NCBI GenBank assembly: GCA_030019335.1
Contig: JASEET010000003.1
Coordinates: 152,242-201,034 of the forward strand
Length of the DNA: 48,793 nt
Source of the DNA: Candidatus Bathyarchaeia archaeon
GTDB lineage: Archaea; Thermoproteota; Bathyarchaeia; Bathyarchaeales; Bathycorpusculaceae
Reading direction: 5' to 3'
A program made the position numbers and the translations under genes. The notes beneath the pieces are model-generated. The model had not been told where the DNA came from and ran no database searches. It saw nothing but the letters and a program-made list of their open reading frames with translations. Shown piece by piece: positions 23,623 through 27,615 of this stretch; positions within the stretch are counted from its first letter, which is position 1; each line of letters starts with the position of its first letter.

Positions 23623-24144
23623 TTGGCAGAGAGAATGCTATTTGTTCCATGGCGATACATTTCTGACTGGAAATGCATTGCATGCGGTAAGTGTTGCAAA
23701 GCCTACAGTGTCGTTTTAAGCTTTCCTGAATGGCTTAAAATCGTTAAAAACTATGGAGTTGATAAAACTGTTTCTGGCTTGGATAAGCTGTTCATAAAAA
23801 GAAGAAGCGACGGTTCATGCGTCTTCTCATACAACCTTTCAAACATGTATTTATGTGGACTGCAACGTATGAAGCCTAAAGCGTGTAAGCTCTGGCCTTT
23901 CCAAATTCTTAGCAAACCCAAATTTGGATATGTAAACGAGGCTGTGTACTATTATGGTGGAAATAAATTCTTCATATATGCAGATTCTACGTGTAGCGGT
24001 CTTAGATATGGAAAGCCAACATGGGAATTCACTAACTACACACTAAAAGAGTTTGTAGAAATTGCCTTAGGACGCCGTATTAATCAATCCAAGACAACCG
24101 CGAACATTAGATTTCTCCACCCCTATGCTCGGTTTATTATATGA
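23623..24144 (+). CDS. YkgJ-family metal- or iron-sulfur-binding protein (CxxCxxCC)
   Basis: A 173-residue protein with the YkgJ motif at WKCIACGKCCKAY (about residues 17-29), followed by CVFSYNLS, YLCGLQRMKPKACKLWPF and a later Cys in DSTCSGL, giving the usual eight-Cys set that binds zinc or an iron-sulfur cluster. The molecular role of the family is not established. TTG start. The next gene's promoter and operator lie directly after its stop. Confidence 0.82.
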   Translation: MAERMLFVPWRYISDWKCIACGKCCKAYSVVLSFPEWLKIVKNYGVDKTVSGLDKLFIKRRSDGSCVFSYNLSNMYLCGLQRMKPKACKLWPFQILSKPKFGYVNEAVYYYGGNKFFIYADSTCSGLRYGKPTWEFTNYTLKEFVEIALGRRINQSKTTANIRFLHPYARFII

Positions 24145-24168: not shown

Positions 24169-24196
24169 TATATCAGAAAAAGTTTATATATCAGAA
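24169..24196 (+). promoter_or_regulatory. TATA box overlapped by a direct repeat (probable operator)
   Basis: The ten-base sequence TATATCAGAA occurs at 24169-24178 and 24187-24196, 18 bases apart. The second copy overlaps a strong TATA box TTTATATA (24183-24190). The TTG start of the ArsR-type regulator gene is 43 bases downstream of the box. Binding here by that regulator would block TBP, giving autorepression of the operon to 27615. This is inference. Confidence 0.55.
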
Positions 24197-24232
24197 TTTC
24201 TTATATATGTGACTGCCGTTGAGGAGAGAGCT

Positions 24233-24553
24233 TTGAATGAGCTTGAAAGCAAAGAAATGGTGAAAATCTTGAAGGCATTAGCCAACCCAGTAAGATTGAA
24301 AATGATTGCTTCACTCTGCGAAAAACCCAAAAATGTTTACGCCTTAGCAAAGGAGCTTAAAATTCCATATCCACTAGCTTACCTTCACCTCGGCGGCTTG
24401 AAAAAACTGGGTTTGGTGAAAGAAATAAGGGAGGAAAAGAAAGTGGAAGGACTTCCAACAGTAAAATACTATGCACCTTCAGACTTTAACTTCGTTTTAA
24501 CTCCCGAAAACATTCAAAAGCTTTTTCAATGGAAAAAGGAGACGGACAAATAA
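24233..24553 (+). CDS. ArsR-type winged-helix regulator
   Basis: A 106-residue regulator beginning MNELESKEMVKILKALANPV. It shows the ArsR fold: VRLKMIASLCEKPKNVYALA, recognition helix YPLAYLHLGGLKKLGLV and a charged wing KEIREEKKVEGLPTVKYY. A longer frame starts at ATG 24125, but that would put the TATA box inside the gene; TTG 24233 has GAGGAGAG immediately upstream at the right distance and is preferred. The stop TAA overlaps the next start in TAATG. It likely controls this operon. Confidence 0.8.
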   Translation: MNELESKEMVKILKALANPVRLKMIASLCEKPKNVYALAKELKIPYPLAYLHLGGLKKLGLVKEIREEKKVEGLPTVKYYAPSDFNFVLTPENIQKLFQWKKETDK

Positions 24554-24879
24554 TGAGAACTTCTATTTTAACAGCGCTCTGCATAATACTTCTTGGTTTC
24601 GGAGTGCCCACCGTTTGCATATACTTTTCTGTATATCACGGATTCCACTTTATTATCGCGGGAATAATCTCTTTCTTAGCCCTAATAGTGGCCGGCATCC
24701 TAACAGTCATAGGTATAACCATCAGCAGCGAAGAAATCCCTCATGAAACGATTAAACCTTCAGAAAGAGAAAAACTAAACCTTTTGCGTGCTCATCAACG
24801 GGCAACCCTAGAGGAATTGGATGACATCCTTGACATACTTAAAGAAATCAGAGAATTGCTAAAGGCAGCACAAGAATAA
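24553..24879 (+). CDS. Small membrane protein with coiled-coil tail
   Basis: A 108-residue protein starting MRTSILTALCIILLGFGVPT, coupled to the regulator by a TAATG overlap. It has two hydrophobic segments (about 5-25 and 33-57) and a charged helical cytoplasmic tail, ending EELDDILDILKEIRELLKAA, likely a coiled coil. No family is recognised. The position between regulator and ABC exporter suggests a sensor or accessory role in the same membrane system. Confidence 0.7.
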   Translation: MRTSILTALCIILLGFGVPTVCIYFSVYHGFHFIIAGIISFLALIVAGILTVIGITISSEEIPHETIKPSEREKLNLLRAHQRATLEELDDILDILKEIRELLKAAQE

Positions 24880-24895
24880 TGGGGATGAGCTTAAG

Positions 24896-25027
24896 GTGAA
24901 GGAGCTGAAATACCTCAAGTTTTCCGATGAAACCGTCATAAAGGAAACTGAAAAGAGGCTTAAAGCGATGAAAAAGTTGCTGGCTGAAATACGAGATTTG
25001 CTGAAGACTGATGGAGGATTTGAATAA
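24896..25027 (+). CDS. 43-residue helical protein, similar to the tail of its neighbour
   Basis: Read from GTG 24896 as VKELKYLKFSDETV, then KETEKRLKAMKKLLAEIRDL and an acidic end GGFE. It looks like the coiled-coil tail of the membrane protein encoded just upstream (LKEIRELL against LAEIRDLL). It has no membrane segment. It is either a small soluble protein or a duplicated tail fragment. The ribosome-binding site of the next gene (AAGGAGG, 25027-25033) begins at its stop. Confidence 0.45.
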   Translation: MKELKYLKFSDETVIKETEKRLKAMKKLLAEIRDLLKTDGGFE

Positions 25028-25039
25028 GGAGGTAAGCAT

Positions 25040-25879
25040 ATGAGTGGAAAAGAAAGAATGAGGGAGTATGAGAAGATGCTTATTGAAACAGCTATTCCAA
25101 CCACACGTGTAAGTGGCTCTGGAAAAGTGCACATCGAAGGAATAGGCGACATCCGCATTTCTGGTTCGGGTTCCGTTTCATCGGAAGAAATAAAGATCAG
25201 TGGAAGCGGAAGCATACCCGGCGGAATAAAAGTTGGAAGGATAAGCTGTTCGGGCAGCGTCTCCATTGAAGGTAGTGCTGAAGCTGAAGAAATGTGTTTC
25301 TCTGGTTCCGCGTCGGTTGCGGGCGATGAAAAAGCAAAGAGCCTTTCTGCTTCAGGAAGTTTTTCCGTTGGCGGAGAAGTGAAAGGTTCCTTGATGAAGG
25401 TTGCAGGTTCATGCAAGGTTGGTAAAAAAGTTGAATTAGAGGACGCTTTGCGTGTGCATGGTTCATTGAAAGTTTTGGGCGACGTGAAAGCAAAAAACAC
25501 GGTGGAGCTTCACGGCAGATTTGATGTTAACGGAAAAATCATTACAGAAAACTTTGAGGCAGAATTAAACAGACTGGAATCGCATGTACGAAAAGGCATC
25601 GAAGCCGTCAATGTAAGTGTAAAGAAAAAGGGAGTTGAAGGCCTGGTGCTTTTTGGCATTCCAATTTTTGGCAGAATCCTCCGCAACGGCAAGTTCTACA
25701 CAACTGACATCGTTGCTAAAGGAAGAGTATACATGGAAAATGTTTGCTGTGACAATGTTTACGGAAGAGACGTGACTATAGGCGAAGGATGCGTCATTAA
25801 AGGAAAAGTGAAATATTTAGAATCCATTTCGGTTCATCCCAAAGCAAAACTCGCAAATCCTCCAGAAAAATCAAGCTGA
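25040..25879 (+). CDS. Bactofilin-like polymer-forming protein
   Basis: A 279-residue right-handed beta-helix protein. From about residue 25 it consists of short repeats with Gly-Ser turns: HIEGIGDIRISGSGSV, then IKISGSGSI, ISCSGSVSIEG, FSGSASVAG and LSASGSFSVGG, continuing with LHGRFDVNGKI. A second block near the C-terminus (VYGRDVTIGEGCVIKG) resembles bactofilin rungs. Between them is a helical insert of about 30 residues. AAGGAGG at 25027-25033 marks the ATG. Bactofilins form filaments on membranes; here it may scaffold the ABC exporter encoded next. Confidence 0.75.
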   Translation: MSGKERMREYEKMLIETAIPTTRVSGSGKVHIEGIGDIRISGSGSVSSEEIKISGSGSIPGGIKVGRISCSGSVSIEGSAEAEEMCFSGSASVAGDEKAKSLSASGSFSVGGEVKGSLMKVAGSCKVGKKVELEDALRVHGSLKVLGDVKAKNTVELHGRFDVNGKIITENFEAELNRLESHVRKGIEAVNVSVKKKGVEGLVLFGIPIFGRILRNGKFYTTDIVAKGRVYMENVCCDNVYGRDVTIGEGCVIKGKVKYLESISVHPKAKLANPPEKSS

Positions 25880-25966
25880 AAAGTGATCAGCCTTGTGCTC
25901 ACTTTACTCAGAAGCCTTAACTAAGGTGACCAGTCAAAACAGTGTAATAGAAGGAGGCTAAAATTG

Positions 25967-26878
25967 ATGGAAGCCGTGGAATCAATCAACCTCGTCAAGG
26001 TTTATCATAGCAAGGAAATTGTTGAGGCTTTGAAAGGCGTTAACATTTCTATCAGAAAAGGCGAGCTATACACACTACTGGGTCCAAATGGTGCAGGAAA
26101 AACAACCTTTCTGAGAATCATTTCCACTCAGCTCTTACCAACAAAAGGCGAAGCATACGTTTCAGGTTATGATGTTTTGACGCAACCTAACGAAGTGCGT
26201 AAGCACATAGCAGTGGTTCCACAGGACGTGGCTACGTACGGCAACTTCACACCTTGGGAATATTCTTACTATTTCTCGCTGCTTCGCGGCATGACTAAAC
26301 GAGAAGCAAAGGAAGCTGCTGAGAAGGCTTTGAAAGCTGTTGAACTTTGGGACTTGCGGAATCGAACATGTGCAACGCTTTCTGGCGGGGAGAAAAAACG
26401 GGCAATAATTGCGTCAGCGTTAGCCTCTAACTCGGATATTTTCATGCTTGACGAACCAACAAGCGGTTTAGACGCTGTGGCACGGAGAAATGTCTGGGCT
26501 GTTTTAAGGGGAATGGTTGAACAGGGCAAGACGATACTTTTAACAACACACATCATGGAAGAGGCTGAAATGGTTTCAGATAGGCTCGCAATAATACATG
26601 AGGGAACAGTGATTGCTGAAGGAACACCGGAACAAATTAAGCGTCTCGTAAAAGAGAAATTCCGAGTTGTTGTAGACGGCAACTTAAACAGTTTGGGCCT
26701 TGTGGAAAATAACAATCGAGTTGTAAAATTTGGTAGTAAATGGATAATCTATATTAAGGATGAAGATGAAGCCCTAGAAATTGTTGGAACCGCGTTAAAG
26801 AAAGGGTTGAGGGCTGAAACTGCGACTATCACACTTGAAGATGTATTTGTAAAACTGGTGGGAGGAGAAACTGATTGA
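25967..26878 (+). CDS. ABC transporter ATP-binding protein of the bactofilin operon
   Basis: Cytoplasmic ATPase of an ABC-2 exporter, 303 residues. Walker A GPNGAGKTT (about 40-48), Q-loop VVPQDVATYGN, signature LSGGEKKRAIIA (about 136), Walker B IFMLDEPTSGLD and H-loop TTHIMEEAE are complete. A C-terminal extension of about 80 residues with LEDVFVKLVGG closes it. I use ATG 25967; GGAGG at 25953-25957 is well placed. The permease gene overlaps its stop in TTGA. Confidence 0.92.
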   Translation: MEAVESINLVKVYHSKEIVEALKGVNISIRKGELYTLLGPNGAGKTTFLRIISTQLLPTKGEAYVSGYDVLTQPNEVRKHIAVVPQDVATYGNFTPWEYSYYFSLLRGMTKREAKEAAEKALKAVELWDLRNRTCATLSGGEKKRAIIASALASNSDIFMLDEPTSGLDAVARRNVWAVLRGMVEQGKTILLTTHIMEEAEMVSDRLAIIHEGTVIAEGTPEQIKRLVKEKFRVVVDGNLNSLGLVENNNRVVKFGSKWIIYIKDEDEALEIVGTALKKGLRAETATITLEDVFVKLVGGETD

Positions 26879-27615
26879 ACAGCAAAATTGTGAAGGATAT
26901 TTTGGTGATTGCTACGTTAAAATCCCTTCCAGACCTTAAGAGGCAGCCCTTGATGCTGACACTTATCGGATTAATAAGCGCCCTCCCATTATTCTTCATA
27001 ATCGTTTTCGGCGGACAGCTTAGTTATGGGCTTATAGGTGCAATGGTTGGAACTATAGGTTTCATTGGTTTGAATGCTGCAATTCAGGATATTACATGGG
27101 ATAGGTATGTAAAAATAAGACAGATCATAGTTGCCATGCCTGTGCACCCGCTCTCTTATGCCATTGGTATAGCTCTCGCCCCATTGATAATTTCAGCTCC
27201 AGGTGTACTATTTTTCACAGTGTTTGCTATATGGTTGGGTGCGCTAACATTTTCCTCTCTGCTTTGGTCAATTATCATTTTAATTCTATGTTGGGCGACA
27301 TTGAGCAGTTTAGGCTTCCTAATATCAACGCACCTTCAAAGGGCAAGCGTTTACACTTTAAATAATCTCTCGAACATTCTTGGTCTAGCCTTGGTGTTTC
27401 TACCACCAGTCTATTATCCAGAAGAAATGCTTGGTAGTTTCAGCTGGATAGCCATGCTGTTTCCAACATCGAACGCTACTGGTTTGATTCGGGTTTATTC
27501 AGGTTCGCTTGATGCATCCGTGATAATGATTGTTATACGATGGTTAATCCTTATAGCAACAACAATAGTTTGCGCTGTTGCAACCATCACTAAGGCAAGA
27601 TGGAGAGAAACTTAA
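26875..27615 (+). CDS. ABC-2 type permease of the bactofilin operon
   Basis: A 246-residue membrane protein with six hydrophobic segments (starting about residue 25). Landmarks are WDRYVKIRQIIVAMPVHPL between segments 2 and 3, the place where ABC-2 permeases touch their ATPase, and FPTSNATGLIRVYSG near the last segment. It starts at TTG 26875, overlapping the ATPase stop, so the two are translationally coupled. The transported compound is unknown. Confidence 0.88.
   Translation: MNSKIVKDILVIATLKSLPDLKRQPLMLTLIGLISALPLFFIIVFGGQLSYGLIGAMVGTIGFIGLNAAIQDITWDRYVKIRQIIVAMPVHPLSYAIGIALAPLIISAPGVLFFTVFAIWLGALTFSSLLWSIIILILCWATLSSLGFLISTHLQRASVYTLNNLSNILGLALVFLPPVYYPEEMLGSFSWIAMLFPTSNATGLIRVYSGSLDASVIMIVIRWLILIATTIVCAVATITKARWRET

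Follow-up and report, generated by a model that had tools for sequence, protein, structure and literature searches.

A four-gene bactofilin unit with exchangeable transporter neighbours in Thermoproteota: a candidate autoregulated membrane scaffold

In bacteria, Toastrack domains (DUF4097/DUF2154/DUF2807) are encoded in operons with SHOCT-like, HAAS/PadR-winged helix-turn-helix (wHTH) or GntR-HTH proteins, sometimes together with ATP-binding cassette (ABC) genes, and the PSP survey proposes that these operons signal membrane stress and link that signal to transcription and transport (PMC11237479). Toastrack transfers to Euryarchaeota have been reported, and a beta-helix partner occurs sporadically in archaea (PMC11237479). 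Bacterial bactofilins typically carry an N-terminal membrane-targeting peptide or transmembrane (TM) segment, which the family model does not require (PMC12364344); archaeal bactofilins, according to Curtis et al. 2024 as cited in PMC12364344, act in cell-shape plasticity. Here we describe a locus with features of both systems in a 48,793-nt stretch (hereafter the window; contig JASEET010000003.1, positions 152242-201034) of a 1.64-Mb Bathyarchaeia metagenome-assembled genome. Six co-directional open reading frames (ORFs) on the + strand (24236-27615), downstream of a TATA box, encode a wHTH regulator, a coiled-coil membrane hairpin (TMcc), a 43-aa microprotein (SM43), a bactofilin-like protein, an ABC ATPase and a permease. 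Judged by comparative genomics, the first four genes make up the conserved unit, and we consider it reasonably likely that this core is an autoregulated, membrane-anchored scaffold or signalling module of Thermoproteota that controls the adjoining transporter.

Toastrack operons are the closest system for which we found a published description, and the likeness is one of parts: an intracellular beta scaffold, a small helical membrane-linked partner, a stand-alone wHTH and, sometimes, an ABC ATPase and permease. In contrast to Toastrack, the beta protein here belongs to the bactofilin family, the regulator is ArsR/TrmB-like, TMcc and SM43 fall outside the named Toastrack families, and the distribution is in Thermoproteota. 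The beta protein scored 14.2 bits against DUF2807 (cut-off 24.2), and secondary matches among 24 members were weak and few (DUF2807 in 3, DUF4097 in 1); because the Toastrack domain test fails, the module would work like Toastrack without being a member.

Membership in the bactofilin family, asserted for the 279-aa protein (25040..25879, +) in the initial annotation, is borne out by a PF04519 (DUF583) score of 44.8 bits over a curated cut-off of 27.9 and by matches to PF04519 in 24 of 24 aligned homologues (E<=0.01), with the Thermus and Caulobacter bactofilins 6ria and 2n3d as the best PDB sequence matches by profile. The single-chain AlphaFold2 (AF2) model (pLDDT 88.9) likewise agrees with the beta fold that had been proposed, predicting a long all-beta repeat after an N-terminal helix; glycines recur every 17 residues, and a conserved C-terminal segment follows the repeat structure. 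A Foldseek search of the PDB with this model returned generic beta-helix proteins only, none at E<=0.001, and is not used here as evidence for a bactofilin. The protein differs from known bactofilins and archaeal halofilins in its longer beta region, in the wHTH, TMcc and SM43 genes that constantly accompany it, and in its N-terminus, where a charged helix (residues 3-16, GKERMREYEKMLIE) without any hydrophobic stretch replaces the hydrophobic tether. Bactofilins have a beta-helical core with a hydrophobic interior and polymerise into filaments without nucleotides, traits that the 279-aa protein may share. This conserved helix, which persists even in members with a small beta part and may make weak amphipathic contact with the membrane, is a candidate docking element. 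Single-sequence genome scans with the 279-aa protein yielded zero confirmed relatives because short exact peptide patterns were too strict, and relatives were recovered instead by whole-genome searches and TMcc alignment.

The case for a four-gene unit begins with its distribution. The core marker TMcc is present in 34 of 398 genomes sampled across the phylum Thermoproteota (about 9%), and also in records named as Thermofilum, Thermofilaceae, Methanomethylicota, Culexmicrobium, Thermoprotei and Caldivirga sp. MU80; the named relatives with orthologues of the module are metagenome-assembled genomes of Bathyarchaeota; 257 genomes of the class gave 17 clear core matches, and 12 of 45 genomes in one order carry the core. 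Core taxa comprise Bathyarchaeia, Methanomethylicota, Thermofilales and Caldivirga. Outside Thermoproteota, no carrier of the core was confirmed among ~85,000 species genomes scanned with a single short motif and tblastn filtering, which distant forms could escape. Neighbourhoods inspected in this wider sample show the order wHTH-TMcc-SM43-bactofilin, and TMcc and wHTH genes are adjacent in essentially every locus inspected. A closer search covered 61 genomes, the window's own and 60 relatives, in eight of which a bactofilin orthologue occupies the same context, once at a contig end. Clear six-gene orthology, in order, is found in five genomes (the window's, G037, G033, G046 and G500), such that the arrangement is not unique to the window's genome. 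The flanks have changed completely around the unit in G046, G052, Thermofilaceae and Thermoproteales, and the differing flanking genes in G046 and G052 imply that the unit is retained or moves regardless of its surroundings. All four core proteins are under purifying selection (dN/dS 0.13-0.20 against the nearest relative, G031), which, with same-order homologues in dozens of genomes, argues that the locus is more than a chance assembly. That we are looking at loose synteny among related archaea, with no functional unit behind it, is highly improbable: the gene distances do co-vary as they would under plain vertical descent, but the order is kept over the phylum despite complete flank change, and the ORFs overlap or abut throughout.

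Within the window, every gene of the initial annotation was recovered in the order and on the strand described, its junctions were as reported, and its proposal of a single regulated operon is supported. The starts of the wHTH, TMcc and ATPase genes were corrected against homologue alignments. Comparison with homologues places the wHTH start (24236..24553, +; 105 aa) at TTG 24236, with the ribosome-binding site GAGGAGAG upstream; the alternative is a leaderless GTG at 24209. The TMcc gene (24553..24879, +) begins at an ATG that overlaps the wHTH stop (TAATG), the SM43 gene (24896..25027, +) has an AAGGAGG ribosome-binding site positioned on its stop, and the bactofilin gene is separated by 87 bp from the ATPase gene (25967..26878, +; 303 aa), whose corrected start is ATG 25967. 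The permease gene (26875..27615, +; 246 aa) opens with a TTG lying within the ATPase TGA (TTGA overlap).

TMcc, a 108-aa protein, is modelled by AF2 (pLDDT 85.9) as three helices (residues 2-28, 33-59 and 69-107), two of them TM and the third a 39-residue cytosolic helix with the motif RAHQRATLEELD...LKEIRELLK, in agreement with its original description as a two-helix coiled-coil membrane protein. The charged termini and uncharged inter-helix loop suggest that both ends face the cytosol. SM43 is helical and has 21 homologues across the phylum, with the consensus LKYxxLSDEEVEE..KRLxEMKxLLxEIRDxLK, a length of 39-50 aa across conserved units and a dN/dS of 0.19. Neither protein could be assigned to a family, no consistent Pfam or NCBIfam match being found across 30 TMcc members and no consistent Pfam match over the 21 SM43 homologues. 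With hhalign, the C-terminal helices of the two proteins align over 26 columns at a probability of 96%, a likeness that is consistent with helix mimicry and that could possibly be convergence, since both are coiled coils.

Two further observations concern TMcc-like genes. At L040:54-618, an ArsR-type wHTH gene stands alone with a gene for a short coiled-coil protein of two TM segments, away from any bactofilin, which suggests that pairs of a wHTH and a membrane coil form a wider family in archaea. In Thermoproteales (L087:4800-5456, L088:4771-5430, L092:5656-6312), the TMcc frame is open across the whole overlapping wHTH gene, giving ~217-227 codons; this is probably a composition effect and possibly an extended form of the protein.

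Upstream of the core, the promoter/operator block (24169..24208, +) contains the direct repeat TATATCAGAA at 24169 and 24187, flanking and overlapping the TATA box TTTATATATC at 24183. The overlap of repeat and TATA box that was first noticed is real, and the direct repeat is one element of a larger set; another, the inverted repeat ATATATCAGA-ATT-TCTTATATAT at 24186-24208, reaches from the TATA box to the point where transcription is expected to start. The block aligns upstream of orthologues in 11 genomes, the window's included, and similar AT-rich boxes precede the module in more distant clades. Given the operator-like palindrome, its overlap with the TATA box and this conservation, the autorepression by the wHTH that was suggested from the outset is probable. 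A regulon search at <=3 mismatches found the block only once in the 1.64-Mb genome, which points to a local regulator.

The regulator itself matches PF01022 (34.8 bits, cut-off 22) and is, by fold, the ArsR-type wHTH that was annotated. Metalloregulator status is unsupported: the alignment of nine orthologues contains no invariant Cys and gives no sign of a conserved metal site, and the score against the metalloregulator model NF033788 (40.4 bits) lies below the cut-off of 55. A role in metal resistance, which the ArsR label might suggest, was rejected on these grounds. A defence-system reading was also rejected, PADLOC yielding generic wHTH (Csa3-like) and ABC/AAA ATPase matches only.

The presence of ABC-type exporter genes after the core, as first annotated, is supported by a PF00005 match of 112 bits in the ATPase and by permease orthologues of 55-70% identity beside ATPase genes. 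The pair resembles DrrAB-type exporters in having a DrrA-like ATPase followed by one ABC-2-like permease with about 6 TM segments by hydropathy. Unlike DrrAB, its scores fall below the cut-offs for TIGR01188 (DrrA; 250.3 bits, cut-off 312.45) and ABC2_membrane_3 (19.2 bits, cut-off 31.6), and the ABC pair is one of several partners of the core. If the operon were instead dedicated to the export of a drug or lipid, the bactofilin and the small proteins would be accessory subunits that localise this particular ABC system, and the wHTH would sense its substrate. The tight coupling in the window, with its TTGA overlap and 87-bp bactofilin-ATPase gap, the ABC orthologues after the core in all five six-gene genomes and the DrrA-like ATPase fit such an operon. 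We nevertheless think it quite unlikely, given that the core stays intact where the exporter has been replaced, shortened or disrupted, and that most Thermofilaceae carry the core with no adjoining transporter.

Replacement is clearest in G031, which groups closest to the window in the tree of core proteins (support 99/90) and whose core proteins are 86-92% identical to those of the window. Here an OPT-family gene (PF03169) takes the place of the ABC genes, fused in frame after ~28 ATPase codons. It is absent from 59 of the 61 sampled genomes, with a weak match in one other, and is 57% identical to an OPT gene adjoining the core in a member of Methanomethylicota (G258). This counterpart beside the core in another class makes chimeric assembly an unlikely origin of the OPT gene; even so, a junction in the middle of a gene deserves notice. 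The two ABC proteins of G052 share only 37% and 28% identity with those of the window, against 61-69% for the core, and no closer relative of the G052 permease was found among the 61 genomes; replacement is likely here, though not proven, in preference to fast divergence. Elsewhere the ATPase is interrupted (G025) or ends at codon 272 with the permease lost (G002, L035:7861-9850), in both cases beside an intact core; in G002, small LysO-like membrane genes on the opposite strand directly follow the shortened ATPase.

Other partners occur elsewhere. In Culexmicrobium and in the whole of family f17, the core is followed by MFS genes that belong to a single subfamily (43-75% identity); an ATPase and two permeases lie beside it in two genomes, a divergent ATPase adjoins it in one Thermofilales genome, and in Thermoproteales an ATPase and permease stand upstream of it. 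The core-protein tree requires at least nine changes of partner type. The initial view of a filament protein dedicated to an ABC exporter is therefore not supported: the bactofilin is tied instead to the regulator, TMcc and the 43-aa protein, and the ABC exporter is an exchangeable partner of the core, one among ABC, OPT, MFS and none.

These features can be joined in a tentative mechanism for the module. TMcc would be a membrane anchor whose two ends lie in the cytosol, and SM43 would pair with the TMcc coil, as a soluble partner or as a competitor. The bactofilin, with no hydrophobic tether of its own, might dock through its N-terminal helix to form a submembrane scaffold. Membrane stress, or the load of substrate or transporter, is our best guess for a signal that would alter the assembly; the altered assembly would then relieve wHTH repression, allowing more of the module and of the adjoining transporter, here the ABC exporter, to be made. 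At the sequence level, this scheme has an established basis in the conserved gene order, the shared helix, the operator placement, the bactofilin family and the exchange of partners. Whether the scheme extends to a full membrane signalling and scaffold system, in which a bactofilin polymer, a coiled-coil hairpin and a helix-mimicking microprotein control a wHTH repressor and plug into ABC, OPT or MFS transporters as an archaeal, bactofilin-based counterpart of the bacterial Lia/Toastrack systems for envelope stress, seems to us evenly balanced.

An alternative is that the unit belongs to the cell-shape or envelope cytoskeleton, of the halofilin/bactofilin type, with a polymer that shapes the membrane, TMcc and SM43 as its anchors, and the transporters as co-expressed bystanders. 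Bactofilin family membership, the reported part of archaeal bactofilins in cell shape and the existence of cores without transporters agree with this proposal. It is nonetheless unlikely, as a dedicated wHTH with a single operator, patchy occurrence in ~9% of the phylum's genomes and repeated association with transporters of the same subfamily fit a conditional response better, and Thermoproteales retain the other three core proteins with only a small diverged beta protein.

Returning to the regulated scaffold module, a co-directional transporter adjoins the core in 9 of 14 roughly independent contexts, the contexts being defined post hoc, against a background of 17% (the share of 354 random genes with a polytopic co-directional neighbour; binomial P ~1e-4). 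Several points weigh against the module as we propose it, beginning with this post hoc definition. In one of the contexts (L086), only the ATPase is visible before the contig ends, and for several of the exchanges and truncations the sequence comes from metagenome assemblies. Many loci, above all in Thermofilaceae, are without a transporter, and transport may thus not be the main job. In Thermoproteales, the bactofilin position is held by a 149-174-aa protein with no Pfam match that is weakly related to bactofilin, keeping the MAEKFDxYY N-terminus and a weak match to the C-terminal part of the bactofilin alignment. Four f17 genomes have no short bactofilin, or only a 60-aa remnant, three of these having a long bactofilin gene close by. 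Finally, the distances among core proteins correlate (r 0.64-0.87), as is also expected under shared ancestry.

The original impression that this was not a described system still stands: in the open-access literature, with most subscription papers outside the search, no published description was found of bactofilins with archaeal operons, Bathyarchaeia or ABC neighbourhoods, and the four-gene unit is apparently undescribed. Sensing and repair of membrane damage are poorly known in crenarchaeal-type archaea, for which the module is a testable candidate; two of its proteins, the 43-aa microprotein among them, have no family assigned, and it occurs in Caldivirga, a cultured genus, and in genomes related to Thermofilum. 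If the proposal is true, the reach of bactofilins would widen beyond cell shape to include regulated transport. That transporters are exchanged while the core stays constant also reveals which part is the functional unit.

Some neighbouring genes deserve mention. Directly upstream of the operon, at 23623-24144 of the window, lies a gene for a CxxCxxCC zinc/iron-chelating domain protein (PF03692), which stays upstream in most Bathyarchaeia orthologue loci and is absent where the module sits elsewhere. A Yip1-domain protein (PF04893) and a TM-anchored beta-rich protein are encoded a few genes upstream of the operon in G002 (L035:2482-4099) and G033 (L036:2128-3725), and neither gene was found in the window. 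A second, long bactofilin (406-462 aa), built with repeated rungs that contain VGG, is widespread among these archaea, and a small wHTH gene often lies next to it (L039:4956-6176 in the window's own genome, G000:C11, and L040, L041, L043, L133, L134 and L137). This long bactofilin was examined as a possible homologous system and set aside, the first loci read being without the TMcc/SM43 core, yet it adjoins the core in three f17 genomes. In family f7, the long bactofilin is followed by an MFS gene of the very subfamily that is found elsewhere after the four-gene core.

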